DNA of 35,461 bases from Planifilum fulgidum. GTDB lineage: Bacteria > Bacillota > Bacilli > Thermoactinomycetales > DSM-44946. Location: contig NZ_FOOK01000032.1 of assembly GCF_900113175.1 (NCBI RefSeq), positions 1 through 35,461 of the forward strand. The letters run 5' to 3'. The notes under the pieces were generated by a model. It did no database searches. It worked only from the letters and a program-made list of their open reading frames with translations, and was not told the origin of the DNA. Both the position numbers and the translations under genes were made by a program. Position 1 is the stretch's first letter. The number at the start of each line of letters is the position of its first letter. This document shows, piece by piece, positions 6,927-32,925 of the stretch.

Positions 6927-6927
6927 C

Positions 6928-7740
6928 ATGACTCAGCGCACGTTGGTCCGACACTTGAGGCGCTCCATCTCCACAATGCCCCCGTCCGGATGGGTCGAGG
7001 AGCCGCCGCCAGTCAAAACACGGGGAATCAAGCGCAATACCGCCCTTTTCTGCGGATGGGGAAGGCTGATTTTCGGACAAACCTTCTCCGACCACAACCG
7101 GATTATCGACATCTTTTCCTCGGAACCTGCGGGAAAGCGGGATTTGGCCATCTACGTCAAAAACCATCACGTGTTGCTGGCCAAAGCCCCCAACCTGCTG
7201 TTTGTTGACCCCTCCCACACCTACCGCCTGTGGCTGCACCATTACCGGATGCCGCGGAAACGATCTTCCCATTTCCACATCCGTCTGCTGAAGGGGAAAG
7301 AGGACGCAGAGCAGGTGAACACCATCTACCGGAAATGCGGCCTGATCGAAAGCCCCGTCTCCACCATCGTGGAAAATCAAAAAACCCACACCTTCAGCTA
7401 TTTTGTCGCCGAGGATTCCACCGACGGGCGGATCATCGGCACGATTACGGGAATCGACCACAAGGAGGCCTTCAACGATCCGGAAAACGGGGCCAGCTTT
7501 TGGTGCCTGGCGGTGGACCCGGACCGACGGGCCCGAGGGGTCGGCCGCGCCCTCGTCCGTTGCGTGGCGGAACATTACCTGGCCAAAGGGCGGGAATACC
7601 TGGACCTGTCCGTTCTCCACGACAACCACAGGGCTATCCGGCTGTACCGCTCCCTCGGCTTCCGCCGGGTGCCCGTCTTCGTGGTCAAGCGAAAAAACGA
7701 AATCAACCGGATCTATTACACGGGAGGACCCAAACCGTGA
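6928..7740 (+). CDS. ngg: GNAT acetyltransferase half of N-acetylglutaminylglutamine synthetase
   Basis: This 270-residue protein matches the N-terminal half of Ngg (TIGR03103), which acetylates glutamine and joins it to a second glutamine. Residues about 40-110 carry the family-specific lead (CGWGRLIFGQTFSDHN, LLFVDPSHTYRLWLHHY). Residues about 115-260 form the GNAT domain, with FWCLAVDPDRRARGVGRALV including the acetyl-CoA loop RARGVG, then DLSVLHDNHRAIRLYRSLGF. In described proteobacterial homologues this domain is fused to an ATP-grasp domain; here the chain stops at TGA 7738-7740 and the ATP-grasp part is a separate overlapping gene. A GGGGTG site at the end of asnO serves the ATG at 6928, so expression should be coupled. 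Confidence 0.85.
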   Translation: MTQRTLVRHLRRSISTMPPSGWVEEPPPVKTRGIKRNTALFCGWGRLIFGQTFSDHNRIIDIFSSEPAGKRDLAIYVKNHHVLLAKAPNLLFVDPSHTYRLWLHHYRMPRKRSSHFHIRLLKGKEDAEQVNTIYRKCGLIESPVSTIVENQKTHTFSYFVAEDSTDGRIIGTITGIDHKEAFNDPENGASFWCLAVDPDRRARGVGRALVRCVAEHYLAKGREYLDLSVLHDNHRAIRLYRSLGFRRVPVFVVKRKNEINRIYYTGGPKP

Positions 7741-8702
7741 ACATTTACGCGCAAATTCTCATCGATGAAGCCAAGCGCCGGGGAATTCGAGTGAAAGTGA
7801 TCGACAAAGCGACAGGCATGTTTGTCCTGGAGCATAATGGGAAGCGGATCCGCTGCCGGGAATCCCTCACCGACCGGACCTCCGCCGTCGCCATGACCAT
7901 TTGCGAAAACAAGGCGCTCACCCGCCGGCTCCTAAAGCGGGAGGGATTCTCCGTGCCGGAACAGGTGGTTCTCAGCCGGGATGCGAATCCGGAAGAGATC
8001 CGCTCCGCTGCGGAAACGCAACTGAAAAAGTGGGGAAGCGCCGTCGTCAAGCCCCTCCGGGGGGAACAGGGCGCAGGCATTACCGTGGATGTATCCACTC
8101 CCGGAGAGGTGGAACGGGCTTTCCGTTTTGCCGCGGAAAACGGGGATGAGGTGGTACTGGAGCAATATGTAAAGGGAAGGGATCTCCGGATTATCGTCAT
8201 CGACCACGCCTTCGTGGCGGCCATCGAGCGGACCCCCGCCCGAGTGACCGGAGACGGCCGTCACACCGTTCGTCAGCTGGCGGAGAAAGCCAACCGGAAG
8301 CTCCGGGAGCAAACCGGCGGCGAAGCCCGGATTCCCTTGGACGAAGAAACCCGCCGGGTGGTCCGGCAGGCCGGTTTCGACTGGGATGCGGTTCCTCCCG
8401 CGGGAAAAACGGTGCCCCTGCGCAAGACGGCCAACTTCCACACGGGGGGAACCATCCGCGACGTGACCGACCAGGTGCCCCCCCGATTGCGGCGAATCGC
8501 CGAGGAGGCGAGCCGCATTCTGGACATTCCCGTCGTCGGCTTCGATTTCATCGTACCCGACTACACCGGGGAGCGCTACGTCATCATCGAAGCCAATGAA
8601 CGTCCCGGATTGGCCAACCATGAACCTCAGCCCACGGCGGAACGGTTCATCGACTTTCTCTTTCCGGAGACCAAGGAAGAGGCGAAGGAGCGGGCCGGTT
8701 GA
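7737..8702 (+). CDS. ngg: ATP-grasp half of N-acetylglutaminylglutamine synthetase
   Basis: This 321-residue ATP-grasp protein matches the C-terminal half of Ngg and should form the peptide bond between acetylglutamine and glutamine. It opens with VNIYAQILIDEAKRRGIRVK, then CRESLTDRTSAVAM, the ATP-binding segment VVKPLRGEQGAGITVDV, LRIIVIDHAFVAAIERTPAR, TANFHTGGTIRDVT and the closing EANERPGLANHEPQPTAERF. Start is GTG at 7737, with GGGAGG nine bases upstream, overlapping the GNAT stop as GTGA. The frame is open further upstream, but that part is antisense-frame noise over the GNAT gene. Joining the two genes would need only a one-base shift, so this is a fission (or pre-fusion) form of the family. 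No M42 peptidase gene, present in some NAGGN cassettes, follows. Confidence 0.88.
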   Translation: MNIYAQILIDEAKRRGIRVKVIDKATGMFVLEHNGKRIRCRESLTDRTSAVAMTICENKALTRRLLKREGFSVPEQVVLSRDANPEEIRSAAETQLKKWGSAVVKPLRGEQGAGITVDVSTPGEVERAFRFAAENGDEVVLEQYVKGRDLRIIVIDHAFVAAIERTPARVTGDGRHTVRQLAEKANRKLREQTGGEARIPLDEETRRVVRQAGFDWDAVPPAGKTVPLRKTANFHTGGTIRDVTDQVPPRLRRIAEEASRILDIPVVGFDFIVPDYTGERYVIIEANERPGLANHEPQPTAERFIDFLFPETKEEAKERAG

Positions 8703-17743: not shown

Positions 17744-19573
17744 TCAGCTAAGCATTCGCTCCACTTCGCGCACATGGGAAGGCGTTCCGCTGATGATCAG
17801 ACGGTCGCCCACCCTCAGCACCGTATCCCCCCGCGGCATGACCACTTCCCCGTCGCGATAGATGCGGATAATCAGAGTGTCGCCGATGAAGGGAAGATCC
17901 CGGATGCGCCGGCCGTCGAACTCGTGATTGTACAGGGGGATCTCCTGCAGATACCCCTCGCTCTCGGAGACGAGCCGAACCAGCGAAGGATGCTCGATCA
18001 GGGAGCGGAGGAGCGTCTTGTTGGCGAAGAAGCTGGAAATCAACCGGATGCGGGAATCCTCGGGCAGGCCTGCTTCCGTTTTGTTTTCCACCCGGGCGAT
18101 GATCCGTTCCACTCCCTGCCGTTCCGCTTCCAGGGCCAGCCGGAGGTTTTTGCTGTCATCGGCGGTGAACAGAACCACGATGTCGCTGGAAAACACCCCG
18201 TGCGACTCCAGATGTTCCCGTTCCACGCCGGGCAATTGAACGATGGCAAAGGGGCGTTCGTTCATGACCTCCAGATTGGATTTGTCCGAACCGTAGAGCG
18301 TGACATCGTACCGATCCCTGACCAAATCCCGGGCAAGCGCCAGGGTGACCGCGTTGATGCCGACCAGGGAGACCTTCGTCCGCCGCTCCTCGCGATCGTC
18401 CGGCATCAACCGTTGGAACAGCACGGGGGAGACCAGGGTGGCGATCACCGCGGACAACACCAGCGCGGTGTTCATCGTCTGATCGAGAATCCCCATCTCC
18501 TGGCCCACCTTCGCCGCCGCGATGACCAAGCTCAGGGTGCAGCTGAGCAGCACTCCGGAGGCGATCGACTCCCTCCAGGAAAACCACCGGCGGAAAAGGG
18601 GAACGACCAGGGTCCTTGAAACATAGAAGGCCAAAAGCAAAAGCGGAAGCACGGTCAAGGCCTTCGTATCCCGCGCCAGAGCGATCAGATCCAATTCGGC
18701 CCCCACCTTCACAAAAAAGATGGGGATCAAAAAGCCGTACCCAAAGGCATTGAGCTGCCGCACAAAGGATTTGTCCGGGGACATGAGGGAAACGATCACA
18801 CCGGCGAGAAAGGCGCCCAGGATGTTTTCCGCCCCGACCCCTTCCGACACCGCCACAAAAAACAGGATCAGCGCAAAAACGCCCCGCGTGCCGATGGAAA
18901 TGGTCTCTCTTCCGATCTTTTCCGGAATTCGGGACGCCCGGAAGAGGCGGACCAGGCGGTAGACGACGAAAAAAACGACGAAGAGCAGCAACAGCCACAG
19001 GGTGTTGAAGACTCCCTCCTCCGTGCGGCGCAGGGAGACCAGAACCGCCAGCAACAGCATCGTGCAAAAATCGGCGATGACGGCGGTAAGCAACACGGAT
19101 TGCCCGAGCGGATCATTGAGAAGCCCCTTGTCCTTCAGCACCGGCAAGGTGATGCTGACGGAAATGGTGGAAATGATCAACGTCATGAAAAAGATGTCCT
19201 TCACATACCCCAGGCCGTAGATGACCCACGACAGTCCCAGGGATAGGAGCAAAATTCCGAGGTAGCCGGCGATGCCGATCACAAGCGGATTTCCGCGCTT
19301 GCCGGAGTGCTTCCGACTCTTCAAAATCAGGTCGAAATCGATCTCCAGCCCGCTCAGAAACATCAGATAGATGATTCCCAACATGGACAAAAGCTGCAGC
19401 AGATGGTCCTCATGAATCAGTTGAAGGCCGCTTTTTCCCAGCACCGCTCCGACGATGATTTCCGCCACCACGACGGGGATCCAGTTCATCTTCAGGCGGT
19501 GCAGCGCGATCGGAACAAAAAAAGAGACGAGAACCACGATCATGAGGGATGTAACCGACTGATATTCTTCCAT
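17744..19573 (-). CDS. CPA2-family monovalent cation/proton antiporter with TrkA-N and TrkA-C domains
   Basis: This 609-residue KefB-like antiporter likely exchanges K+ or Na+ for H+ at the cell membrane. Residues about 8-385 form the 12-helix exchanger domain with the acidic family motifs (MFLSGLEIDFDLILKS, VIADFCTMLLL, ENILGAFLAGVIVSL, FFVKVGAELDL). A TrkA-N-like domain follows (about 400-510, TKVSLVGINAVTLALARDLV); its Rossmann glycine motif is degenerate, so nucleotide binding may be altered. A TrkA-C domain ends the protein (RIRDLPFIGDTLIIRIYRDG, LRVGDRLIISGTPSHV) and is a possible c-di-AMP or ligand sensor, by family analogy. The ATG at 19573 has GGGAGGAG four bases upstream. Single gene. 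Confidence 0.88.
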   Translation of the reverse strand: MEEYQSVTSLMIVVLVSFFVPIALHRLKMNWIPVVVAEIIVGAVLGKSGLQLIHEDHLLQLLSMLGIIYLMFLSGLEIDFDLILKSRKHSGKRGNPLVIGIAGYLGILLLSLGLSWVIYGLGYVKDIFFMTLIISTISVSITLPVLKDKGLLNDPLGQSVLLTAVIADFCTMLLLAVLVSLRRTEEGVFNTLWLLLLFVVFFVVYRLVRLFRASRIPEKIGRETISIGTRGVFALILFFVAVSEGVGAENILGAFLAGVIVSLMSPDKSFVRQLNAFGYGFLIPIFFVKVGAELDLIALARDTKALTVLPLLLLAFYVSRTLVVPLFRRWFSWRESIASGVLLSCTLSLVIAAAKVGQEMGILDQTMNTALVLSAVIATLVSPVLFQRLMPDDREERRTKVSLVGINAVTLALARDLVRDRYDVTLYGSDKSNLEVMNERPFAIVQLPGVEREHLESHGVFSSDIVVLFTADDSKNLRLALEAERQGVERIIARVENKTEAGLPEDSRIRLISSFFANKTLLRSLIEHPSLVRLVSESEGYLQEIPLYNHEFDGRRIRDLPFIGDTLIIRIYRDGEVVMPRGDTVLRVGDRLIISGTPSHVREVERMLS

Positions 19574-20604
19574 GATCTCCTCCCGAAACGGATTTGCCCG
19601 ATATGCATGTTTTTTTAAATATCCTTTGCGGCCGCCAATAAATCATACTCTTTTTTCCGGCGGGCCGTGAAGCCCCCATTTTCCCTTCCACGTCCCGCGG
19701 CGAAAAAAAGGCGCAAAGGCGCATCAAAAGGGAAAAGCCCCTCCTCCCCGGGCAAAACGGGTTTATCGCCCATTGGCCTTGGAAGGTGAAAGGCCGGGGA
19801 TAGGAAGTAAACGTTTAGGGAACGCCGAAACGGCGAAGGAAAAGCAATACCCTAGCGGATCCATAACCATTAAAGCTGGAAGCCCGACTCGTTCAAGAAC
19901 AGCGGGTCGGCCCCCCGCTTCTCCGAACGGATGCGACTTTCTTATTAGAAACGACCATTGGAGGAAAGGGACGGATTTCAGCGGAACATGGGCTTCTGCT
20001 CCTTCATTGTGAACATTGCGGAAAAGGCCACGATACCCGGACGAGGGGGGTCCGAACCGATCCACCCCAGCGGTTCCTTTTGCCGGGCGGGAGAAGGAAT
20101 CCGGCGGGGACGCATCGCGTGGCATTCGCCCCGCATAAATTGGACGGCAACTGCGCGCGGGCCTTCAGATGGTTTTTCATACTTTGGAATCCCCACTTCC
20201 GAAAAAACGCAGCCCAAGCAGCTTACAGCGAACACCCCGTCCTTAAGGACCCGCTGTATACACCTCGATTGCCAGCGGTGCAAGCGGCCCCCTTGCCGAG
20301 GAAAGAAATAGCGAGACATCCGATCCCCGGCAGGCAAATTCGTCCCCCTCCGATCACCGCCGTCCCTTTCCCTGCCCGGCTCCAAAAGTTTGAACCACGT
20401 CCTCATGTTTGTGCAAAATCCCACTTCCTGCCGGCAGAAAGAAGCCGCTTTTCCGGAGATGGAACAGCTCCTCCCCCGCATCTTTTCCAATGTTGCGTTC
20501 CCCGGAATTCTTTCCGTGCCGCACGATGAATGAAGTCCAGGATAAGATGCATCCCAATCTCCCCCGAATTCCGCTACACAGGTTGGGACTAATTGGGAGT
20601 GCCC
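19574..20604. other. 1-kb stretch without a convincing gene
   Basis: Open frames on both strands are Arg/Pro/Ser-rich, lack ribosome binding sites and match no family I know. The part nearest the antiporter start is AT-rich and probably holds its promoter, but I could not assign boxes. A structured stretch at 19775-19920 is described separately. The last 120 bases lead into the sugar operon. Confidence 0.4.
19775..19920 (+). other. Possible structured RNA of unknown class
   Basis: Several short pairings nest or follow each other on the plus strand: GGCCTT/AAGGCC (19775-19795), GGAT/ATCC (19798-19801 with 19859-19862) enclosing TAGGG/CCCTA (19816-19820 with 19850-19854) enclosing CGCCG-AAA-CGGCG (19823-19835), then AGCGGG/CCCGCT (19901-19919). 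No known riboswitch consensus fits. Chance pairing in GC-rich DNA is possible. Confidence 0.25.
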
Positions 20605-20620
20605 TTGGAAGCGGTTGCAT
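20605..20620 (+). promoter_or_regulatory. cre box (CcpA site) ahead of the PTS-transketolase operon
   Basis: TTGGAAGCGGTTGCAT fits the Bacillus catabolite-responsive element consensus WTGNAANCGNWNNCAW at every position. It directly precedes a TACAAT (20622-20627) that may be the -10 box, so CcpA binding there would block transcription. The start codon follows 31 bases after the box. Confidence 0.75.
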
Positions 20621-20651
20621 TTACAATGAAAGTAAAGGAGGCTTCTCCGCC

Positions 20652-22724
20652 ATGCTGGAAAAGAAAAGCCTGCAACTGTTTCATCTGCTTTTGTCGATGA
20701 ATCCGAAATCCTATCCGCTTTTCATCGAAAACATCCAAATGAGCAAGCGGCAATTTTTTTATCATTTGGACAAGATCAATTATTTTCTCCGGCAAAACCA
20801 GGTGCCGCCCATATCCATCACCCAGAAGGAAATCCGGGTTCCGGAAGAAGTTTTCGACCAATGGAAAACGGGACGGCTGAATATCCTGCCGAAAGATTTT
20901 CAATTCGATGAAGAGGAACGAAGTTATTTGCTGCTGATTTACACCTTCATCCGAGGGGAGCCGATTTCCAACACCCACTATCAGTTTTTGCTAAACGTCA
21001 GCAAAAACACGGCAACAGCAGCAGTCAGGCAGGCGAATCAGTTCAGCAAAAAGTTTCGGGTGGACATCCGTTACTCGAGGGAAAAAGGTTTCCATTTGGA
21101 AGGCCAAGAGGAAGACAAACGGAATTTGACGCTGAAATGCATCTCCATGTTTTCTTCTCACCCGAAAAAGCACGAAATTTTACGGCACCTCCTCCGCAAA
21201 CACGGATACGAAGACCGGTTCCAACTGTACGAAGGCAAGTTGCGGGAAATCGGCGCCTCTTTCGGACTGACGTTTATTGAGGAAAGATTGTTCGATTTCC
21301 TGTATTTGCTGCAGATGATCCATATCCGGCAAAGGCAGAAAAAATGGGTACAAATTCACGCGGACACGATGGAATTTCTGAAAAAACAGAAAATGTACCA
21401 GGTGGCAAGGACGATCCAGGAAGTGCTGGGCGAAAGCACCGACCCCCAGGAACTGGCCTACCTGACGATGCTGCTTTTGGGCATCACGTTGGGAAATTTG
21501 TCCGCCGTGCCGTCAGGGATTTTAAAAACGATGACCGAAAAGATGATTCATGATTTTGAAAAGTTTGCCTGCATTCAAATTCAAGACAAAGAAAAGGCCG
21601 TCAACACCCTGTTCAGCCACTTCAAACCGGCTTATTACAGGATGCTCTACAAGATCCCCATCACCAATCCATTATTAAACGAAATCAAAAAGGAGCATGC
21701 GACCCTTTTTCACCTGGTCACTGAAGTGATGAAACCGATTCAGGAAATGCTCAATATCGACATTCCCGAGGACGAGATCGGATTTTTGACGCTCCATTTC
21801 GGGGCGCTGCTGGAACAAAACGCGAGGAACGAAAAACCGATTCAAGCCATCATCGTCTGCCCGAACGGCGTCAGTTCCAGCTTGATGGTGGAAACCTATT
21901 TGCGTTCCCTCTTCCCTTCCTTTCGTTGGATCACTTCCATCTCAAAGGAAGAATTTTCAAAAACAGACGAAGAGCTTTACGACATCGTATTTTCCACAGT
22001 GCCGTTTAAGACGGAAAAGCCCCTGTTTATCGTCAAACCGATCATGAGCGAAGCGGAAAAGAAGATGTTGCATCACCGGGTGATGGAACATCTGTTCAAA
22101 CAGCCGGCACCCTTTCCCACGCCGGAAAGGTTGATAAAGATCATCGGCAAATACGCCGAAATCAAAGAACCGGAAAAATTAAAAGACGCCATAACCATGG
22201 AGTTATACGGGAAAACCGGAGGGACAACGATAAGGAGGATTCAACCGTTGTTAAACGAGCTGTTAACGGAAACGATGATCCAATTTGAAACGGCCGTACC
22301 GGACTGGAAAAACGCAATCGCGAAGGCGGCCGAACCATTGCTGAAAAACGGGTACATCGAACCATCCTACATCGAAGCGATGATCACCAACGTGGAAAAA
22401 ATGGGTCCTTACTTCATCATCCATCCGGGAATCGCCATTCCCCACGCACGGCCGGAAAACGGCGTCAACAAATTGGGCATGAGCTTTCTGAAATTAAAAG
22501 AACCGGCATATCTGCTGAATGAAGAAAAAAACGCGGCCTCCGTTTTCATTTGCCTGGCGGCCGTCGATAATAACACCCATTTAAAAGCCCTGTCCCAGCT
22601 GACCCGGTTGCTCGGAAACAAGGAAAGCTTAGACCGCCTTCTAAATGTGGAAAATCCCGCGGAACTCATAGCCCTAATCGAGGAGTATTCCGCTGAAAGA
22701 CAGGACGGATCGAAAAATCATTGA
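20652..22724 (+). CDS. PRD-containing transcriptional regulator/antiterminator with EIIB-like and EIIA domains
   Basis: This 690-residue regulator has LicR/MtlR-type architecture: N-terminal helix-turn-helix (residues about 1-160), two PTS regulation domains (about 180-390), an EIIB-like domain with a cysteine (IIVCPNGVSSSLMVETYLRS, Cys403), and a C-terminal mannitol/fructose-type EIIA domain (IIHPGIAIPHARPENGVNKL, His591 and His598). PRD2 keeps two histidines (SHFKPAYYR, LTLHFGALL); PRD1 appears to lack the second. Activity should be set by phosphorylation from HPr and the cognate EII. The EIIA domain may also phosphorylate the downstream EIIB, since no separate EIIA gene is present. ATG at 20652 has AAAGGAGG ten bases upstream; a start in the frame at 20409 is rejected. 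Confidence 0.9.
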   Translation: MLEKKSLQLFHLLLSMNPKSYPLFIENIQMSKRQFFYHLDKINYFLRQNQVPPISITQKEIRVPEEVFDQWKTGRLNILPKDFQFDEEERSYLLLIYTFIRGEPISNTHYQFLLNVSKNTATAAVRQANQFSKKFRVDIRYSREKGFHLEGQEEDKRNLTLKCISMFSSHPKKHEILRHLLRKHGYEDRFQLYEGKLREIGASFGLTFIEERLFDFLYLLQMIHIRQRQKKWVQIHADTMEFLKKQKMYQVARTIQEVLGESTDPQELAYLTMLLLGITLGNLSAVPSGILKTMTEKMIHDFEKFACIQIQDKEKAVNTLFSHFKPAYYRMLYKIPITNPLLNEIKKEHATLFHLVTEVMKPIQEMLNIDIPEDEIGFLTLHFGALLEQNARNEKPIQAIIVCPNGVSSSLMVETYLRSLFPSFRWITSISKEEFSKTDEELYDIVFSTVPFKTEKPLFIVKPIMSEAEKKMLHHRVMEHLFKQPAPFPTPERLIKIIGKYAEIKEPEKLKDAITMELYGKTGGTTIRRIQPLLNELLTETMIQFETAVPDWKNAIAKAAEPLLKNGYIEPSYIEAMITNVEKMGPYFIIHPGIAIPHARPENGVNKLGMSFLKLKEPAYLLNEEKNAASVFICLAAVDNNTHLKALSQLTRLLGNKESLDRLLNVENPAELIALIEEYSAERQDGSKNH

Positions 22725-22819
22725 TCGAGGAGGTGAGGGAAAAGGCAAGGGATGCGCCAACCAGCCGCTTTCATTCATATGGATGGACTTCAAGGAATCT
22801 TTGCGGAGGTGTTGTGGTG

Positions 22820-23101
22820 ATGAAAATTTTGGCCGTCTGCGGATCCGGGCTCGGGAGCAGCTTCATGCTGGAAATGAATATCCGGCAGTCCCTTCAGGAA
22901 CTCGGGGTTAACGGCGTCGAAGTGGATCACAGTGATTTAAGTTCGGCTACCAGCGACCTGGCGGACCTGTTCGTCATGGGCAAAGACATCGCCGAAGGGG
23001 GCGGCCATCTGGGAGAGACCATCGTATTGGACAGCATCATCGATCAGGATGAATTGAAGGCAAAGCTGAAAGAAAAACTCGAACAATTGGGATTACTCTA
23101 G
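22820..23101 (+). CDS. PTS ascorbate-type EIIB component
   Basis: This 93-residue phosphocarrier resembles UlaB/SgaB. The phosphorylation cysteine lies in MKILAVCGSGLGSSFMLEMN (Cys7), followed by VDHSDLSSATSDLADLFVMG. It should take phosphate from an EIIA domain and pass it to the sugar carried by the neighbouring EIIC. The ATG at 22820 has GGAGGT nine bases upstream; a GTG immediately before is also possible, and the open frame back to 22721 is leader. The 95-base gap after the regulator has a GGAGG-rich segment but no gene. Confidence 0.9.
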   Translation: MKILAVCGSGLGSSFMLEMNIRQSLQELGVNGVEVDHSDLSSATSDLADLFVMGKDIAEGGGHLGETIVLDSIIDQDELKAKLKEKLEQLGLL

Positions 23102-23113
23102 GAGGGATGCTTG

Positions 23114-24466
23114 ATGCGCCAATTGGTACTGGATATTTTAAGCCAACCGGCGGTTTTGGTTGCCGCGATCGCGCTGATCGGCTTGCTTATTCAGAAAAAG
23201 TCATCGGCTGAAATCATTAAAGGAACGACGAAAACCTTTTTGGGATTCATCGTTCTCTCCGCGGGAGCCAACGTGCTCGTCGGCTCCCTGGACCCCTTCG
23301 GGAAAATGTTTCAAGAAGCCTTCCATGTGAACGGGGTTGTTCCGAATAATGAGGCCATCGTCGCCATGGCGCTGACAAAATACGGTTCCACGACCGCGCT
23401 CATTATGTTCTTTGGAATGATCGCAAATATTCTCGTCGCCCGTTTCACGAATTTTAAATATATTTTCCTTACCGGTCACCATACGCTGTACATGGCTTGC
23501 ATGATCGCCGTCATTTTGGTGGTGGCGGGAATGGAAGGATTCCAGCTGGTATTGATCGGTTCTTTGGCTCTGGGATTGATCATGGGCGTCTTTCCCGCAT
23601 TGGCCCAGCCGTACATGCGAAAAATCACCGGCAACGACCAAGTTGGTTTCGGTCATTTCAGCACCCTGGGCTATGTTTTGTCGGGGGCGATTGGAAGCGT
23701 TGTCGGCAAGAATTCCCCTTCCACCGAAAAAATCAACTTTCCGAAAGGGTTGGGATTTTTGCGCGACAGCTCGATCAGCATCGCATTGACCATGTCGATC
23801 CTCTATATTATCGTCGCCATCATCGCGGGACCGGACTACATCGAAAAAAATCTCAGCAACGGAACCCATTTCATCGTCTTTTCCATCGTACAGGCGGTCA
23901 CCTTCGCGGCGGGGGTCTTTATCATCTTGACCGGTGTCCGTTTGATTTTGGCGGAGATCGTGCCGGCCTTCAAGGGAATCTCCAATAAGCTCGTTCCCAA
24001 CGCCAAACCCGCCCTTGATTGTCCGATTGTTTTCCCCTATGCGCCTAACGCCGTTTTAATCGGGTTCTTCTGCAGCTTCCTGGGCGGCATCGTCGGCATG
24101 TTCATCCTCGGCGCGGTCGGCGCGGTGATTATCCTTCCCGGAGTCGTTCCCCATTTCTTTACGGGGGCAACTGCAGGCGTTTTCGGCAACGCCACCGGAG
24201 GGATCCGCGGGGCGATGATCGGTTCGTTTTTCAACGGTCTCCTGATCACCTTCCTGCCGGTGTTCCTGATGCCGGTCTTGGGAGATCTGGGATTCGCCAA
24301 CACCACCTTCTCCGATTCGGATTTTGCCGCATCCGGCATCCTTTTGGGATACATTACGAAACATCTCGGTTCCGCCGGACTGACGGTGTTCGTCCTCGCA
24401 GCCGTGATCATTCCGGTTGCCGTGTATTTCCTGCGCGGGAAGAAAAGGGTGCCCGAGAATCTTTGA
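23114..24466 (+). CDS. PTS ascorbate-type EIIC permease (UlaA/SgaT family)
   Basis: This 450-residue membrane protein carries and releases a sugar during phosphorylation. Family motifs include GTTKTFLGFIVLSAGANVLV, YIFLTGHHTLYMACM, GNDQVGFGHFSTLGYVLSGA, PNAKPALDCPIVFPYAPNAV and FTGATAGVFGNATGGIRGAM. About ten to twelve helices are seen. Members carry L-ascorbate, but many homologues linked to transketolase genes carry other sugars, so the name does not fix the substrate. The ATG at 23114 has GGAGGG seven bases upstream and lies 12 bases after the EIIB stop. Confidence 0.92.
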   Translation: MRQLVLDILSQPAVLVAAIALIGLLIQKKSSAEIIKGTTKTFLGFIVLSAGANVLVGSLDPFGKMFQEAFHVNGVVPNNEAIVAMALTKYGSTTALIMFFGMIANILVARFTNFKYIFLTGHHTLYMACMIAVILVVAGMEGFQLVLIGSLALGLIMGVFPALAQPYMRKITGNDQVGFGHFSTLGYVLSGAIGSVVGKNSPSTEKINFPKGLGFLRDSSISIALTMSILYIIVAIIAGPDYIEKNLSNGTHFIVFSIVQAVTFAAGVFIILTGVRLILAEIVPAFKGISNKLVPNAKPALDCPIVFPYAPNAVLIGFFCSFLGGIVGMFILGAVGAVIILPGVVPHFFTGATAGVFGNATGGIRGAMIGSFFNGLLITFLPVFLMPVLGDLGFANTTFSDSDFAASGILLGYITKHLGSAGLTVFVLAAVIIPVAVYFLRGKKRVPENL

Positions 24467-24557
24467 CCCGGGCATCCGTGCAGGCTTCCTCGAACATTCC
24501 CCGTTAACATCCCCATACCGGGTTTGCGGCTTCAGGAAATCACAAGGGGGCACGACG

Positions 24558-25397
24558 ATGGACGCATTGGAATTGTTTAGGGACCAAATCCGGCTATGGA
24601 CATTGAAGCAGCTTTATCATCTCGGATTCGGCCATTACGGCGGGAGCCTCTCCATCGTGGAGGCTCTTGCCGTCCTTTACGGAAAGATCATGAAGATCAC
24701 GCCGGACAACTTTCATGATGAAAAGCGGGACCGCTTCATTTTATCGAAGGGACACGGCGGGCCGGCGCTTTACGCGGCGCTCGCCCTCAAAGGCTTTATC
24801 CCCTTCGGCATGCTTTTTACCCTGAATCAGAACGGCACCAAACTCCCTTCCCATCCGGACCGGAATTTGACGCCGGGCGTCGAGATGACAACGGGCTCCC
24901 TCGGTCAAGGGATTTCCGTTGCCGTCGGGGTCGCTTTATCCCACAAACTTTCCGACATCCCCGCCTACACCTATACGATCGTGGGAGACGGGGAACTCAA
25001 CGAAGGCCAGTGCTGGGAGGCGATCCAATTTGCCGCCCATCATCAATTGCATCGGCTAGTGGTATTGGTCGATGACAACAAAAAGCAATTGGACGGCTGG
25101 ACAAAAGATATCGTCAATCCCCGCGATTTCGTAGAGAAATTCAGATCATTCGGCTTCTGGTCGCGCCGGGTAGACGGAAGCAGTTTGGCGGAAATTGAAG
25201 AGGCAATCGAGGAAGGAAAAAAACAGACTGAAATGCCGGTCGCCATCATCCTCGATACGAAGAAAGGACAAGGGGTGCCGTATTTGGAAGCGAAAGAAGA
25301 CAATCACCATATCCGGCCGACCGAAGAGGACAAAAGGGCGATCGAAGCGGCTATCCAAGAACTGGAACGGAAATGTGCAGGAGGGGTTGCCCAATGA
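24558..25397 (+). CDS. Transketolase, N-terminal (thiamine diphosphate-binding) subunit
   Basis: This 279-residue protein equals the first half of transketolase. It shows the substrate/cofactor segments HYGGSLSIVEALAVLYGKIM, FILSKGHGGPALYAALA and TGSLGQGISVAVGVAL, and the diphosphate motif GDGELNEGQCWEAIQFAAHH with VVLVDDNKKQLDG. It needs the next gene product to form the complete active site. The ATG at 24558 has AAGGGGG seven bases upstream. It is 91 bases from EIIC with no terminator, so it shares the operon. Split transketolases next to sugar PTS genes, including apulose-4-phosphate transketolases, are known; the exact sugar here is not decidable from sequence. Confidence 0.92.
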   Translation: MDALELFRDQIRLWTLKQLYHLGFGHYGGSLSIVEALAVLYGKIMKITPDNFHDEKRDRFILSKGHGGPALYAALALKGFIPFGMLFTLNQNGTKLPSHPDRNLTPGVEMTTGSLGQGISVAVGVALSHKLSDIPAYTYTIVGDGELNEGQCWEAIQFAAHHQLHRLVVLVDDNKKQLDGWTKDIVNPRDFVEKFRSFGFWSRRVDGSSLAEIEEAIEEGKKQTEMPVAIILDTKKGQGVPYLEAKEDNHHIRPTEEDKRAIEAAIQELERKCAGGVAQ

Positions 25398-26365
25398 ACG
25401 CCATATCTTCCCGACGATTAAATCCCGAAGAAAAGGAAATGAGACAAGTCTATGCGGAGACGGTCTTGGAACTTGCGCAAAAAGACGCCCGCGTCATCGC
25501 CCTGGAAGCCGATCTGATGAGCTCCATTTCCACCAACAAAATCCAGCCGTTCATTCCAAAACAAATCATCAATTGCGGCATCATGGAAGCCCATATGATG
25601 GGCGTCGCCGCCGGAATAGCCCTGACCGGAAAGATCCCCTTCGTGCATACTTTCGCCCAGTTCGCCACGCGCAGGGCGTTCGACCAGCTTTTCGTTTCCT
25701 TGGCCTATGCCAAATTGAATGTCAAGATCCTCGGTTCCGACGCCGGAGTTACCGCGGAACACAACGGCGGAACCCATATGGCTTTCGAGGACCTCGGGCT
25801 TGTCCGGCTCATTCCCCACGCCACCGTCTATGAGGCCAGCGACAGCACCATGCTGAAGGAACTGCTCGTTCAAAGTTACGGGGAATACGGCGTCCATTAT
25901 ATCCGAACGATCCGCAAAAAGGCCTTGCAGATTTACGACAAAGGAGAAAAATTCCCGAAGGGAAAAGGAAAGCTGCTGAGGGACGGAAAGGATGCAGCGA
26001 TCATCGCTTCCGGGATCATGGTCGCCGAATCGCTGCTTGCCGCCGATCTGCTGGCGAACCGAGGGATTGACGTGATGGTCATCGACATGTATTCGATCAA
26101 ACCGATCGACCGGGAGCTTTTGGTTCACGCCGCCAAGAGGACCGGACTGGTGATCACGGCGGAAAATCACAATGTCATCGGCGGGTTGGGCAGTGCGGCG
26201 GCGGAAATCCTGGCCGAGACCTTCCCGATCCCGGTTTACCGGATCGGCGTGAGGGAACAATTCGGCCAAGTGGGCAAAACGGATTATTTGAAAGAATATT
26301 ACGGCCTGACCGCAAGACACATCGCGGAAACGGTACGCGAACAAATGAACAGGAAAAAAGAATAG
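25394..26365 (+). CDS. Transketolase, C-terminal subunit
   Basis: This 323-residue protein holds the pyrimidine-binding and C-terminal transketolase domains. The catalytic glutamate lies in INCGIMEAHMMGVAAGIALT; further motifs are FAQFATRRAFDQLFVSLAYA, VTAEHNGGTHMAFEDLGLVR, VIDMYSIKPIDRELLVHAA and ITAENHNVIGGLGSAAAEIL. It pairs with the N-terminal subunit to move two-carbon units between ketose and aldose phosphates. The ATG at 25394 overlaps the previous stop (ATGA), with AGGAGGGG seven bases upstream. It is the last gene of the operon; a hairpin without a U-run follows (TGACCGGG at 26380-26387 with CCCGGTCA at 26424-26431). Confidence 0.92.
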   Translation: MNAISSRRLNPEEKEMRQVYAETVLELAQKDARVIALEADLMSSISTNKIQPFIPKQIINCGIMEAHMMGVAAGIALTGKIPFVHTFAQFATRRAFDQLFVSLAYAKLNVKILGSDAGVTAEHNGGTHMAFEDLGLVRLIPHATVYEASDSTMLKELLVQSYGEYGVHYIRTIRKKALQIYDKGEKFPKGKGKLLRDGKDAAIIASGIMVAESLLAADLLANRGIDVMVIDMYSIKPIDRELLVHAAKRTGLVITAENHNVIGGLGSAAAEILAETFPIPVYRIGVREQFGQVGKTDYLKEYYGLTARHIAETVREQMNRKKE

Positions 26366-26859
26366 GCCTTCAAAACCGCTGACCGGGTGAAACCTTGTTT
26401 TCCGCGGAGGAAAAGGGGAAGTGCCCGGTCAATCATTTCCTCCGATGACTTCAATACAAAGTTGTTTTCAAAATCTCTGGGAAAAATAAATCTGCGTTGT
26501 AGTAATGAATCGAAACCGCTCCACTTTGGCAAGCCATTTTCCTTCAAACCACGGGTTTTGATTCTGAAGCGATTTTGATGATTCGGATGACGCCGCACAG
26601 TAAATAGAACCGAAACTTCCCTTTGTTACCCCCAAATTCTTCTCAAGGGTTGCATTTTTCATTCAGAAATACAACTTGAAACAGAATGCTACGGAAAATA
26701 CTTGTTTTGACAACATATCCGATTCATTCGGCGATATGCCTGACGAATTTTTCCGAAGCGGCCAATGAAACCTGCCAACGGACGCTTCCCTTCCCGTCAA
26801 GGACGGAGGGCGGTCATCGCAGGCGGATTTTCATGCTCGCTTCCAACCGGTCGCATCCA
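26366..26859. other. AT-rich gap of about 490 bases without a supported gene
   Basis: This stretch between the transketolase operon and rocA is clearly more AT-rich than the flanks. It holds the possible operon-end hairpin at 26380-26431 and short open frames on both strands with no good ribosome binding site. One minus-strand frame (26662-26468) contains LGVTKGSF, reminiscent of a TetR-type helix-turn-helix, but the surrounding residues do not fit. Confidence 0.4.
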
Positions 26860-26904
26860 GAAGAAAAAACCCCGCCTCCCCGGAGAAGCCGGGAAGGCGG
26901 GGGT
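26860..26904 (-). terminator. Rho-independent terminator of rocA
   Basis: On the minus strand a long GC hairpin (about 15 bp, 26869-26904, CCCCGCCTTCCCGG with CCGGGGAGGCGGGG) is followed by TTTTTTCTT. It lies 30 bases after the rocA stop. Confidence 0.9.
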
Positions 26905-26934
26905 TGGACGCGAGAGGCCGATGCCGACCTGCGA

Positions 26935-28482
26935 TCAAAACACCTCCGACACCAGCTTGGCTTGGGTGAAGAGGAGCAGGTAATCGTAGCCGCCGGCCTT
27001 GGAGTCGGTGCCCGACATGTTGAAGCCGCCGAAGGGATGGACTCCCACCAAGGCGCCGGTGCACTTGCGGTTGAAGTACAGGTTCCCCACGTGGAACTCG
27101 GTGCGCGCCTTTTCCAGGTTGGCGCGGTTCCGGCTGATCACCGATCCGGTGAGGCCGTATTCCGTGTTGTTGGCGATGCGGAGAGCGTCGTCGAAATCCT
27201 TGGCCTTGATGAACGCCAGCACCGGACCGAAAATCTCCTCCTGGGCGATCCGGGCGTCGGGGGAAACATCGGCGAAAATGGTGGGCTGGATGAAATAACC
27301 GTTGCCTTCCGCCTTGCCCCCTCCGGTCATCAGACGGCCTTCCTTCTTGCCGATCTCGATGTATTCAAGAATCTTCCGGTAGGCGTTCTCATCGATCACC
27401 GGACCCATGTCGACGCCGAAGGATTTGGCCTCGGCCACCTTCAGCTGCTTCGTCTTCTCGACGACCTTGTTCAACACTTCATCATACACGTCCTCCAGAA
27501 CGATCGCCCGGGAACAGGCGGAACATTTCTGCCCGGAGAAACCGAAGGCCGACGTGACGATGGTCTGGGCGGCCAGATCCAGATCCGCATCCTTGTCGAC
27601 GATGATCGAATCCTTTCCGCCCATCTCGGCGATGACCCGCTTGATCCATTTCTGGCCGGGAGCGGTTTGGGCCGCCAGTTCATTGATCCGGAGTCCCACG
27701 TCCCGGGATCCCGTGAAGGCGACGAACCGGGTCAAGGGATGCTTCACCAGGTACTCGCCCACTTCCCCGCCGGGGCCGGGCACGTAATTGACGACGCCGT
27801 CCGGCAGACCGGCATCCTGCAGAATTTCCATGAACTTGGCGGCGATCACCGCCGTGTTGCTGGCCGGTTTGAGAACGACCGTGTTCCCCGCCACCAGCGA
27901 AGCCGTCGTCATCCCCACCATGATCGCCAGCGGGAAGTTCCACGGGGGAATCACCACCCCCACGCCCAGGGGGATGTAGTACAGCTCGTTGTCCTCTCCG
28001 GGAATGCGGGTGAGGGGCTGCCGCTCGCTCAGCCGGATCATTTCACGGCCGTAAAATTCCATGAAATCGATGGCCTCCGCCGTATCCGCATCGGCTTCCG
28101 GCCAGTTTTTCCCCGCTTCATGCACCATCCACGCGGAAAACTCGTGCTTACGCCGGCGCAGGATGGCGGCCGCCCGGAACAAAATCCGCGCGCGGGCTTC
28201 CGGTGAAACCGCTTTCCACTCTTCAAACTTTTTTGCCGCCGCCTGCATCGCCTTTTCCGCCAACTCCTGGTTGGCCTTGGAAACATAGCCGATCGTCTCG
28301 TCCACATTGGACGGGTTGATGGAGCGGATCTTCTCTTCCGTCCGAATCCGTTCGCCGCCGATGATCAGGTCGTACTCCCTGCCCAGCTGGGCCCGAACGG
28401 TTTCCAGGGCCTCTTCAAAAGCCCGACGGTTCTCTTCCTTGGAGAAATCCGTGAACGGCTCGTTCCGAAAATCAACGACCAT
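26935..28482 (-). CDS. rocA: 1-pyrroline-5-carboxylate dehydrogenase
   Basis: This 515-residue aldehyde dehydrogenase superfamily enzyme has the exact length of Bacillus RocA. It oxidises glutamate semialdehyde (from pyrroline-5-carboxylate) to glutamate with NAD+, the second step of proline breakdown and the last of arginine breakdown. Visible motifs: nucleotide-binding region [20 protein letters not shown], general base Glu in [20 protein letters not shown], catalytic Cys in [16 protein letters not shown], and [13 protein letters not shown]. The ATG at 28482 has GAGGAGGGG four bases upstream; upstream codons to 28608 are leader. It is divergent from putB, which makes its substrate. Confidence 0.95.
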
Positions 28483-29847: not shown

Positions 29848-31461
29848 TTACTCCTCCTCCGGTTTGTAAATAAAGTAATCAAAATCGGCGGGCAGGTTTT
29901 GCCCGGAATTGTCCTGACATTGCATTCCGACAAAAGCTCCGGTGAAAAATCCGCCGCCCCTCACGTAATCGTCCGACAGCTTGTAGGAATAAAAGTCGAT
30001 CGGGATCTCCGTCCAATGCTCGCCGTCGAAGGAATAGAAATAGCGATAGGTGTTCGTCCGGACTTTGACCCGGAGATACACGTATTCAACTTCGTCCGGG
30101 ATCTCGATTTCTTTTCCTTTCAGCGGCTGATCAAACACAAAGTTGTCGCAGGTGGTGATGGCGAGGATCCTTCCCTTTTCCTCGTCCCACGTGATCTGCA
30201 GGGCCGTCCAGTTTTCGGTGTTGTAGTAGTTCACCAAACCGGCCGCCTGCTGGAACGTGTTCGGCCTGAAGGCCACCTTCGTTTCCGCGGTGAAGCGGAA
30301 ATGCTGCCAGCGCCTGGCAACCAGCGCCTGCTTGAATTTCGACGTCAACGATTCTTTTCCGTACAGCCGCAGATGTCCGGGGCGGTCCGTCAGGGACAAC
30401 GTATCTTCCCCGAGCGGAATGCGCAAGGTTTGAAAATGCAGGTTCAACCGGTCGCTGTCAAAATCGTCTTTTTCCGGATAATCCCTCTCCCATTTCACTT
30501 CCTCGATGTCGGGTCCCTCGATCGTCAAAGAGGGCTGGTTTCCGCCGACGACATACGGCCAGCCGTCTCTCCATTCCAAACGCTGGATCGCCGTCTCCCG
30601 TCCCAGCGGACAATAGCCCCGCGGGCTGAGAAGCGGTTGGTTTTCCTTTGGAAGCGGCCGTCCCGTCAGGTGAACCAGAAACCATTCATTGGTATGCGTC
30701 TGCACGATCGACGCGTGTCCCGCCTTTTGCAGGGGATTTCTCGGATAAGGATAGGACGTGATCAACGGGTTGTCCGGATGCACTTCATAGGGTCCCCACA
30801 GATTCTTCGATCGGGCAATCGTCGCCTGATGCTCGTACCTCGTCCCCCCTTCCGCCGTCAACAAATAGTAATACTCGCCGATTTTGTAAAGGTGCGGCCC
30901 TTCCACCAATTTGACGTCGGTTCCCTTGAAGATGACTTTTGGCTCTCCGACCAGCTTTTTCTTCTCGTGATCGTACTCCTGCATCACGATTCCGTAAAAG
31001 TTGTGATTCCCGACGCGCGGATCCCAGAGCATGTTGAGCAAATATTTTTTGCCGTCCTCATCGTGGAACAAAGACGGATCAAATCCGGAACTGTTCAGAT
31101 AAATCGGGTCCGACCATTCCCCGTCAATCCGGTCACACGTCACCAAGTAATTGTGACAATCCTTCCACTGGCCGTCGGTCACCTTCACATCCGTGTATAT
31201 CAACCAAAACAGCCCGTCATGGTACGACAGTTGCGGCGCCCAGACCCCGCCCGAATCCGGATTTCCGATCATGTTCAACTGGCTCAGCCGATTAAGGGGC
31301 CTGGCAACCAGGCGCCAGTTCTTCAAATCCTTCGAGTGGTAAATTCCCACTCCGGGGAACCATTCAAAGGTGGAAACCGCAATGTAATAATCCTCCCCGG
31401 CGCGGCAAATGCTCGGATCCGGATGGAAACCCGTCAAAATCGGATTTCGGATCGTTGCCAT
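29848..31461 (-). CDS. xynB: Glycoside hydrolase family 43 beta-xylosidase
   Basis: This protein of about 537 residues hydrolyses xylo-oligosaccharides to xylose, probably in the cytoplasm as it lacks a signal peptide. The five-bladed propeller carries the GH43 acidic triad: Asp in [10 protein letters not shown] (general base), Asp in SSGFDPSLF, and Glu in [10 protein letters not shown] (general acid). A C-terminal beta-sandwich of about 200 residues ([13 protein letters not shown], ending in [11 protein letters not shown]) is typical of the XynB subgroup. In-frame starts are GTG 31470, ATG 31464 and ATG 31461; the last gives the usual N-terminus and an 8-base distance from GGGG. It is the second gene after xynP, 28 bases away, ending at a bidirectional terminator. 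Confidence 0.93.
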
Positions 31462-31488
31462 CATATCCACCCCGCATCGATTGTTTTC

Positions 31489-32865
31489 TTAACTTGCCAT
31501 AATGCTTTCGTCGCGGCTTTCGCCGACGTTTCCCTTCAAGATTTCCTCTTTCACGCGCGGAAGGAACCTTTCATAATTGAGCCCGACCTTGGTGATCAGC
31601 ATGAGCACGACCATGGCGAGGGGGAAGTAGATTTGCATCGATTTAATGGCGGTGATGGCGCTGTCCGGTTGGACCGAAGCCCCGGCGATATATCCCCCCA
31701 GCGAGAGGGACCAGGCAACCAGCGCAGCGGTGATTCCCTGACCGATTTTCATTCCCGCGCTCGTCAGACTGAACACCGAACCTTGCACGGGAACTCCCGT
31801 CTTCCAGTACACCAAGTCGCCCACATCGGCCACAATCGCAGTGAGTGCCGCCTGCAGCGGAACCAGCCCGATCGAGTTGATGACCAGGCCGATGATCATC
31901 GCCGGCAAACTTTCGGAGAAAGCCGTCATGATCACATAAGCAACAATGGATATCCCAAGCCCCCAATAGACACATCTTCGCACCCCGAATTTTCCCGCCA
32001 GTTTGGGAGCGATCAAAAGCCCCAGAATCATCGGAACCAGCGCCGCAAGGCTCATCGGTGCCATGAGGTTTGCATCATCGAAGATATATGTGGCGTAATA
32101 AACCCGGATTCCGTTTTCCGTTTGCCTCAGATACCACAACAGATACAGAACAAGCGCCAGAATGAAGTACTTATTCGTGAACAGGGCTTTGAAAGCGGTG
32201 AGAAACGACACCTTCCGCTCCTGATTTCGGGCCTTTGCGACGTTTCGTTCCTTTGCGAACCAGCCGGTGATCATGAGCGGCACGGCGCATAACAACGCGT
32301 AGAGGAACGAGGTCCATGTCCAGCCCTTCTGTCCGCCTCCAAACATCGAAACGAGATACGTCGTAAAGGTCGTGATCGACAGCACGGCGGCGTTTGCAAA
32401 AATGAAGCGGATGCTGCCCAGAGAGACGCGGTCTTCCTCATCGTTGGTCATAAAGGACGTCAGCGAGGAATATGCGATGTTGTTGGCGGTGTAAAAGACG
32501 GCGGACAGCAGCAAATAAACAATGAACACGTATGCCACCTGTCCCCCGTCCCCCAGAAAACCCGGAACATTGAACAGCATAAACGTCAATATTCCCAAAA
32601 TTGGCGCCGTCCAGAAAATCCAGGGTTTTGCCTTGCCCATTTTGGTGTTCGTATTGTCGATGACTGTGCCCATGAACAAATCGGTGAACCCGTCCGCAAC
32701 GCGCGCCAGCAAAAGGATCGTTCCGATGATCCCGGCGCTCATGCCGACCGTGTCCGTCAAATAGATGGTGATGAACGACGCGATGAACGTCCAACTGAAG
32801 TTCGCCCCAAAATCGCCCAAACCGAATGTTAGCTTCTCGATCATTGGCAGCTTGTGCGTTTTCAT
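31489..32865 (-). CDS. xynP: Glycoside-pentoside-hexuronide:cation symporter (xyloside transporter)
   Basis: This 458-residue, 12-helix transporter of the GPH family (XynP/XylP/MelB-like) probably imports xylo-oligosaccharides with Na+ or H+. Motifs: EKLTFGLGDFGANFSWTFIA, ILLLARVADGFTDLFMGTVI, DNTNTKMGKAKPWIFWTAPI and the middle loop SSLTSFMTNDEEDRVSLGSI. The ATG at 32865 is preferred over the GTG at 32874, which lies inside the ribosome binding site (GAGGTG, six bases upstream of the ATG). It is the first gene of the xynPB unit, with a long leader of about 225 bases holding a cre box. No xylR gene is in the window. Confidence 0.92.
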   Translation of the reverse strand: MKTHKLPMIEKLTFGLGDFGANFSWTFIASFITIYLTDTVGMSAGIIGTILLLARVADGFTDLFMGTVIDNTNTKMGKAKPWIFWTAPILGILTFMLFNVPGFLGDGGQVAYVFIVYLLLSAVFYTANNIAYSSLTSFMTNDEEDRVSLGSIRFIFANAAVLSITTFTTYLVSMFGGGQKGWTWTSFLYALLCAVPLMITGWFAKERNVAKARNQERKVSFLTAFKALFTNKYFILALVLYLLWYLRQTENGIRVYYATYIFDDANLMAPMSLAALVPMILGLLIAPKLAGKFGVRRCVYWGLGISIVAYVIMTAFSESLPAMIIGLVINSIGLVPLQAALTAIVADVGDLVYWKTGVPVQGSVFSLTSAGMKIGQGITAALVAWSLSLGGYIAGASVQPDSAITAIKSMQIYFPLAMVVLMLITKVGLNYERFLPRVKEEILKGNVGESRDESIMAS

Positions 32866-32925
32866 CAGCGGCACCTCATCCGTTTCATGTACTTTGTTTG
32901 GTCCATAAACGTATGAACCGCTGCA

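Follow-up and report, generated by a model that had tools for sequence, protein, structure and literature searches.

A ula2-type phosphotransferase operon of Planifilum fulgidum encodes a split transketolase with an altered head-group site

Introduction

Two questions are raised by an operon of Planifilum fulgidum in which a sugar phosphotransferase system (PTS) is encoded together with a split transketolase: which sugar is imported, and which protein supplies its phosphate. The operon lies in a stretch of 35,461 nucleotides (contig NZ_FOOK01000032.1 of assembly GCF_900113175.1, positions 1 to 35,461), referred to here as the window, and consists of five plus-strand genes at 20652-26365 encoding a UlaR2-type regulator, EIIB, EIIC, and the N- and C-terminal subunits of a transketolase (TK-N and TK-C). 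A first-pass annotation had described a one-strand operon whose regulator contains an EIIA domain and in which no kinase, isomerase or separate EIIA is found; gene content and Pfam assignments of the five genes confirmed this description.

The operon is not a new kind. According to the sections of two papers that deal with it, Streptococcus pneumoniae SP2131-SP2127 (spd_1961-1957) matches it gene for gene and in gene order, again with no dedicated EIIA (PMC3302838, PMC4324149). In its account of this locus, Bidossi 2012 (PMC3302838) called it tempting to suggest that the regulator EIIA energises the PTS and proposed ketopentoses as substrates, and the donor idea is thus already in print. Afzal and colleagues, in the corresponding sections, named the operon ula2, reported a single transcript activated by UlaR2 with ascorbate, and noted an additional IIA in strain G54 (PMC4324149). 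According to a section of a further paper, mutants in ulaR2 grow less well in vitreous humour (PMC6780617). No proven substrate of a ula2 operon was found in the accessible parts of the literature, including work later than the ula2 papers. Beyond the substrate question, interest attaches to the transketolase, whose site bears a head-group change described for sulfosugar metabolism in the pertinent parts of PMC11659671, and to the occurrence of fused and free EIIA among related loci, a natural comparison bearing on the question of whether a transporter can draw its phosphate from a transcription regulator.

Results and discussion

Recurrence of the five-gene operon across Bacilli

When 398 Bacilli genomes were searched for relatives of TK-C, the six nearest genes had 48-69% identity, and all six lay within the same five-gene order; the genes that follow the module differ among these six, except for one common to L085 and L086. 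Named genomes were scanned as well; of the 136 loci obtained, the best 80 were used, and the order regulator-EIIB-EIIC-TK-N-TK-C was intact in 73 of the 80, a recurrence that argues against a chance arrangement. Of the remaining loci, two are cut by contig ends (L150, L186), three have the transketolase pair without this PTS (L174, L184, L199), and in two the window regulator matched just an EIIA stretch (L182, L197). One gene was matched in two frames in L167, L172 and L195, which are among the 73, and extra genes are inserted in the module in L157 and L200. When open reading frames of the 80 loci and a Salmonella locus (L203) were clustered, each of the five module genes spanned 37 to 42 genus-level labels, and no sixth family recurred like the five; these labels are partly strain names, and one record titled Arthrobacter has genes grouping with a Bacillus. 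Next in frequency came an apparent phosphate-type ABC ATPase, at 8 labels, which looks like chance, and deduction of the substrate from neighbouring genes was rejected. The P. fulgidum operon is therefore real, well conserved and of the ula2 type, in a new host; operons of this type are widespread in Bacilli, with a relative in Salmonella.

Compared with the pneumococcal operon, by its published description, gene order and described domains are the same and a separate EIIA is likewise missing. Identities to six named streptococci serving as stand-ins for pneumococcus (L187, L195, L196, L198, L201, L202) were 32-35% for the regulator, 46-54% for EIIB, 56-64% for EIIC, 57-59% for TK-N and 53-57% for TK-C.

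Genes with possible roles in sugar phosphate metabolism occur at individual loci. HAD- or PHP-type phosphatase-like genes stand on the same strand directly beside the module in L152, L154, L156, L127, L162 and L084, and one lies inside it in L157, the only case checked with Pfam; they are possible sixth genes. A PHP gene was found near the module in 4 labels; at 2 of these 4 loci, and also in L084, it directly adjoins the module in the same orientation. In Vagococcus silagei (L200, 4328-7143), SIS-domain genes, possibly sugar-phosphate isomerases, precede EIIB and follow EIIC. A gene resembling transaldolase or fructose-6-phosphate aldolase (FSA) by eye lies 3' of TK-C on the same strand in L142 and L161, with gaps of 117 and 60 bases.

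The transketolase head-group site is altered

The head-group residues of TK-C are R17, S44, D116, N124, H128 and R174. In comparison with E. coli TktA and the human and Carboxydothermus hydrogenoformans transketolases, R358, S385, H473 and R520 (E. coli numbering) are kept, while the residues H461 and D469 of the housekeeping phosphate/hydroxyl site are replaced by Asp (D116) and Asn (N124). The C. hydrogenoformans enzyme (6yaj, 6yak) shares the two-chain split and is the best solved match to both window subunits, but retains the canonical His and Asp; it is a heterotetramer according to part of its published description.

This D/N pair is present in all 81 module transketolases (81 loci being the module count in both the TK-C and the EIIA comparisons) and also in L174, L184, L199, L205 and the BLAST-found L054-L059. 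Across 135 TK-C rows, duplicates included, it occurs in 91; none of the 44 other rows comes from a module locus, and 31 of them have the canonical RSHDHR. Ala replaces Ser at the S44 position in 45 of the 90 rows reading R[SA]DNHR.

The same H-to-D change has been reported for a candidate sulfofructose transketolase of Faecalicatena, in which RSFHR becomes RAFDR (R9, A36, D108, R166; PMC11659671, parts on this enzyme). The spacing of the R/S/D/R residues in the window TK-C (27, 72, 58) equals that of the Faecalicatena subunit, and the window protein matches the RAFDR-type motif of SqwGH at R17, S44, D116 and R174, the tabulated positions, which omit the F. The position of N124 is not mentioned in the parts of PMC11659671 on sulfofructose transketolase.

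A quick TK-C tree with SH-aLRT (Shimodaira-Hasegawa-like approximate likelihood ratio test) support only was built from an 83-row subset with at most one sequence per genus label for named loci, and contains several long branches. The module enzymes and L199 fall into one D/N clade with a support of 99. The gene order of L199, read by eye, resembles the cluster in the parts of PMC11659671 consulted (reductase, G, H, RpiB-type isomerase and two transaldolase-type genes), and by gene order and motif L199 is likely SqwGH, although in its sequence the motif A and D are separated by one residue more. The phylogenetic check proposed in the first-pass annotation thus placed the module with a likely SqwGH and apart from AptAB-like pairs (see below), with L199 and the pairs beside FGGY kinases representing SqwGH and AptAB in the tree. 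The likeness to SqwGH accordingly covers the split, the H-to-D change, the Faecalicatena spacing and the shared clade. The surroundings differ: SqwGH clusters described in PMC11659671, in the parts seen, include a sulfoquinovose (SQ) isomerase, a sulfoerythrulose (SEu) isomerase, a sulfoacetaldehyde (SAA) reductase and an ABC transporter, whereas no SQ-pathway neighbours were recognised by eye among the window open reading frames. Because the head-group site is of the sulfofructose-transketolase type, the ketose donor is probably not an ordinary sugar of the xylulose-5-phosphate type.

A different pathway is seen on an Enterococcus gilvus plasmid (L206), in which a split transketolase stands beside dihydroxyacetone kinase, RpiB, FSA and a gene of the triose-phosphate isomerase family.

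A proposed self-contained route and the ketopentose alternative

On balance, and with modest confidence, we favour a self-contained route of PTS and transketolase, with the regulator EIIA as donor and a ketose that is not an ordinary transketolase substrate. The EIIA domain of the regulator would pass phosphate to EIIB, which would phosphorylate the ketose during its entry through EIIC. In the presence of the sugar, phosphate would drain from EIIA and EIIB, and the PRD regulator would then activate the operon. From the ketose phosphate so formed, the split transketolase would then pass two carbons to glyceraldehyde-3-phosphate, yielding xylulose-5-phosphate and an aldehyde phosphate two carbons shorter. 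The earlier proposal that the sugar arrives as a ketose phosphate and is cleaved by the transketolase fits the gene content in that the PTS appears self-contained; cleavage as an ordinary donor is made doubtful by the D/N site.

Several observations weigh against this account. Most D/N rows come from the scan whose patterns held part of the motif, the pair being found also in the BLAST-derived rows L054-L059 and L203. The EIIC pocket extends beyond the module. At the positions of the 11 E. coli UlaA residues reported as vitamin C contacts in the relevant part of PMC6048161, the window EIIC reads NEHHYHFDVFT; 67 of 80 module EIICs read NEHHYHFDVF[ST], 10 read NEHAYHTDVFS (all shown being Enterococcus) and 3 read otherwise. 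Of 20 EIICs encoded in operons that lack the split pair, 4 have the identical pocket (L103, L104, L107, L108), 15 carry a single substitution (Y to F) and 1 carries two; this pocket thus does not single out operons with a split transketolase. Further adverse points concern the EIIA domain and ascorbate, and are given with those subjects.

It is possible, and among the alternatives the best placed, that a ketopentose (xylulose or ribulose) is imported, with the split transketolase as an additional copy of the ordinary enzyme that uses xylulose-5-phosphate. Ketopentoses were proposed for SP2129-30 in the account cited above (PMC3302838), and outside the module, an identical EIIC pocket (L107, L108), or one that is a residue off (L109), occurs in regulator-EIIB-EIIC sets that have, as read by eye, a full-length transketolase and a DeoC-like aldolase downstream. 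By eye, a transaldolase-like gene lies downstream in L121, also one residue off, and an epimerase-like gene in L117. These downstream genes point to pentose-level metabolism in the wider EIIC group and favour a ketopentose. Against it, a full-length transketolase is already encoded on C1 (L015; 50% identity to E. coli TktA across 662 residues), no module transketolase retains the His of the phosphate site or the Asp after it, and pneumococcal fermentation with xylulose gave only unspecific acidification, as stated in part of PMC3302838. Of the candidate sugars in the first-pass annotation, a plain pentulose is possible, although the changed motif at the phosphate site raises the likelihood of an unusual donor.

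Fused and free EIIA domains

The window regulator has the PRD, EIIB-like and EIIA parts of ula2-type regulators, PRD and EIIA scoring above cut-off and the EIIB-like part below it (20.8 bits against a cut-off of 23.6; 6e-4); the PF00359 E-value of 4.8e-37 refers to the whole regulator protein. IAIPHAR in the EIIA domain and CGSGLGSS in EIIB are both present, and these motifs are presumed to contain the phosphorylated residues.

EIIA is found solely inside the regulator in 74 of the 81 module loci. Three have solely a free EIIA: Salmonella L203 and two metagenome-assembled genomes (MAGs), of Propionibacteriaceae and Erysipelotrichaceae, in the latter of which Pfam sees an EIIA domain in the regulator as well. 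Two of the remaining four are truncated; in L167 the EIIA stretch forms a separate frame, and L171 has an extra EIIA hit in another gene. In Salmonella L203 the order from EIIB through EIIC to the two transketolase halves is preserved, as is the D/N signature, but the regulator is LacI-type and EIIA is a separate gene. A literature search with the locus tags of this operon returned no paper. In an EIIA tree that is weakly resolved at its base, the free copies of both MAGs fall among the fused ones. The pattern fits the earlier claim that the regulator EIIA is the phosphate donor, as the fused domain would be the only EIIA at most loci and a free one appears where the regulator is LacI-type; it is compatible with that role and no proof of it.

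Retention of the His proved uninformative. The [PA]HA motif is present in all 75 fused module EIIA copies (PHA in 74), and the His is also retained in regulators adjoining a free EIIA (L011, L103, L104, L110), as VHA and IHA in L103 and L104; LHA is found in L118, L119 and L122. Since the His is kept beside a free EIIA, it decides nothing by itself, and its conservation was withdrawn as evidence for a donor role. Three other points count against the regulator as donor: in the tree the free EIIA of Salmonella is a long branch, flagged as meeting another, and is not firmly placed; other EIIA proteins of the genome could serve in trans; and no demonstrated phosphotransfer from a regulator-fused EIIA was found in the literature.

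In P. fulgidum, PF00359 occurs at seven places and PF03611 at three (the window operon, C10 and C38). C10 (L011, 5939-12895) encodes a second complete ascorbate-type PTS with its own regulator, free EIIA, EIIB and EIIC, and the EIIA on C46 belongs, by reading, to a fructose-type operon. No free EIIA dedicated to the window operon was found in the genome, in which the EIIA places on C35, C1 and C24 (frames of at least 665 residues) were not read at locus level; the free EIIA of C10 belongs to another EIIBC.

That the regulator EIIA is a sensor only, with another cellular EIIA energising EIIB, is conceivable but doubtful. MtlR-type regulators use such EIIA domains for sensing, free EIIA proteins are available on C10 and C46, and a His-bearing fused EIIA coexists with a free one on C10 and in L103, L104 and L110. 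The prevalence of loci with only a fused EIIA, and the free EIIA beside a LacI-type regulator, speak against it and for the regulator as donor.

Two side observations concern the other ascorbate-type genes. Phosphotriesterase-like, creatininase-like and SIS-domain genes (read by eye) lie downstream of the C10 PTS, which suggests import of a different sugar, perhaps a lactone or N-glycoside. C38:21706-21906 (in L012) is an EIIC remnant, with a 98-residue open frame and three stops inside a longer protein match.

Ascorbate, its breakdown products and apulose

A bolder and rather unlikely variant of the favoured route is that the PTS takes up L-erythrulose, or a similar ascorbate breakdown product, as erythrulose-4-phosphate, and that the D/N transketolase cleaves it. 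A two-carbon unit would then pass to glyceraldehyde-3-phosphate and phosphoglycolaldehyde would be left. Ascorbate breaks down to compounds such as erythrulose, and its breakdown products could be the actual inducers of ula2. According to the relevant part of PMC11659671, SqwGH also cleaves 4-deoxy-4-sulfoerythrulose, the sulfonate analogue of erythrulose-4-phosphate. In a Salmonella RNA-seq study, in a confounded comparison, ulaA_2 and a putative transketolase, which may be genes of L203, rose 3.5-fold with threonate genes (PMC8341724, in part). If true, this variant would account for the ascorbate induction of the pneumococcal operon, for the retention of a dedicated transketolase, and for the HAD-/PHP-type phosphatase-like genes beside the module in a few genera.

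Ascorbate itself, as the substrate of a second ascorbate transport system implied by the name ula2, is quite improbable. Ascorbate-6-phosphate is not known to be a transketolase donor. The window EIIC is related by sequence to UlaA, its best solved match (4rp8, 1e-51), and scores 618.9 against a cut-off of 380 with the NCBIfam ascorbate IIC model NF006919, which favours ascorbate over the route preferred here. So does the 2.3-3.2 fold array induction of pneumococcal ula2 by ascorbate, for which UlaR2 is needed, as given in part of PMC4324149. Only 4 of the 11 UlaA contacts are kept (H135, H194, D314 and F362), with seven changed from the E. coli TYHIQHQDIFM, and neither the UlaG lactonase nor the UlaD decarboxylase of E. 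coli has a match in the P. fulgidum genome at E 1e-10; UlaG has none in 4 of 7 module genomes searched. Ascorbate is disfavoured on these grounds, which also speak against the EIIC being a true ascorbate carrier with a lactonase partner. Given the different pocket and the altered head-group site of the transketolase, the name ascorbate transporter is probably wrong for this EIIC.

A D-apulose PTS with an apulose-4-phosphate transketolase is very improbable: such a route would need no kinase or isomerase and AptAB is also split, yet transketolase pairs beside an FGGY kinase (L213, L210), which by their neighbours are taken to be AptAB-like, have S/L in place of D/N and group on a separate branch (support 100) that lies outside the D/N clade, and the window operon has no FGGY kinase. 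Apulose, a candidate of the first-pass annotation, is disfavoured by site residues and tree, the comparators being presumed AptAB enzymes. Full-text searches of the available literature for apulose with transketolase or with apiose gave no match.

Operon layout, upstream region and origin

The TK-N and TK-C reading frames share 4 bases (ATGA), and coordinates are collected in Table 1. The nearest family-assigned genes on either side, a Na/H exchanger (17744-19573) and an aldehyde dehydrogenase (26935-28482), are on the opposite strand, so the operon stands alone.

Table 1. Coordinates of the operon genes and the candidate operator in the window
Feature	Position	Strand	Support and remarks
Candidate operator, inverted repeat ATCCCAA ... 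TTGGGA	20551..20589		Half-sites 32 bases apart start to start; ~100 bases before regulator start
Transcriptional regulator, MtlR/UlaR2 type: PRD, weak EIIB-like part, C-terminal EIIA domain (IAIPHAR)	20652..22724	+	PF00874, PF00359
EIIA domain region of regulator, residues ~530-690, proposed phosphoryl donor for EIIB	22239..22721	+	PF00359, residues 537-678
PTS EIIB, presumed active Cys in CGSGLGSS	22820..23101	+	PF02302, 8.4e-14
PTS EIIC, ascorbate (L-Asc) family, pocket NEHHYHFDVFT	23114..24466	+	PF03611, 3.2e-154
Transketolase N-terminal (thiamine diphosphate) subunit, TK-N	24558..25397	+	PF00456, 6.2e-49; best solved match 6yak
Transketolase C-terminal subunit, TK-C	25394..26365	+	PF02779 + PF02780; best solved match 6yaj

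The candidate operator was found at -99 to -101 with the 32-base offset in the window and 4 of its closest relatives and in none of the 69 others among 74 scanned, a count that is not independent because the pattern was derived from the same five sequences. In the Geobacillus and Anoxybacillus copies both arms are changed, to CACAA/TTGTG. The published pneumococcal UlaR2 site had 0 matches in the window with up to 3 mismatches allowed, a difference from ula2 that is not treated as family-defining, as the prediction of this site concerned only the pneumococcal operon. Counts of sigma-70 promoter and terminator patterns were near the shuffled mean, and there were no Rfam or tRNA matches.

The module was likely gained horizontally from a thermophilic bacillus, since no TK-C closer than 41% was found in the 41 other genomes searched from this order, which include 2 congeners, one of them 67% complete, while the Geobacillus and Anoxybacillus copies are ~80% identical. 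GC content is 0.47-0.55 in the five 1.5-kb bins from 19501 to 27000, against 0.58-0.65 in 10 of 13 bins to the left and 0.53-0.60 to the right, a one-sided contrast.

Two further gene groups were noted in the window. At 29848-32874, on the minus strand, a GH43 beta-xylosidase-like gene (Pfam) and an apparent sugar transporter likely serve xylo-oligosaccharide use. Glutamine-hydrolysing asparagine-synthase-like, acetyltransferase-like and ATP-grasp-like genes (by eye) at 5160-8702 resemble an osmolyte dipeptide cluster.

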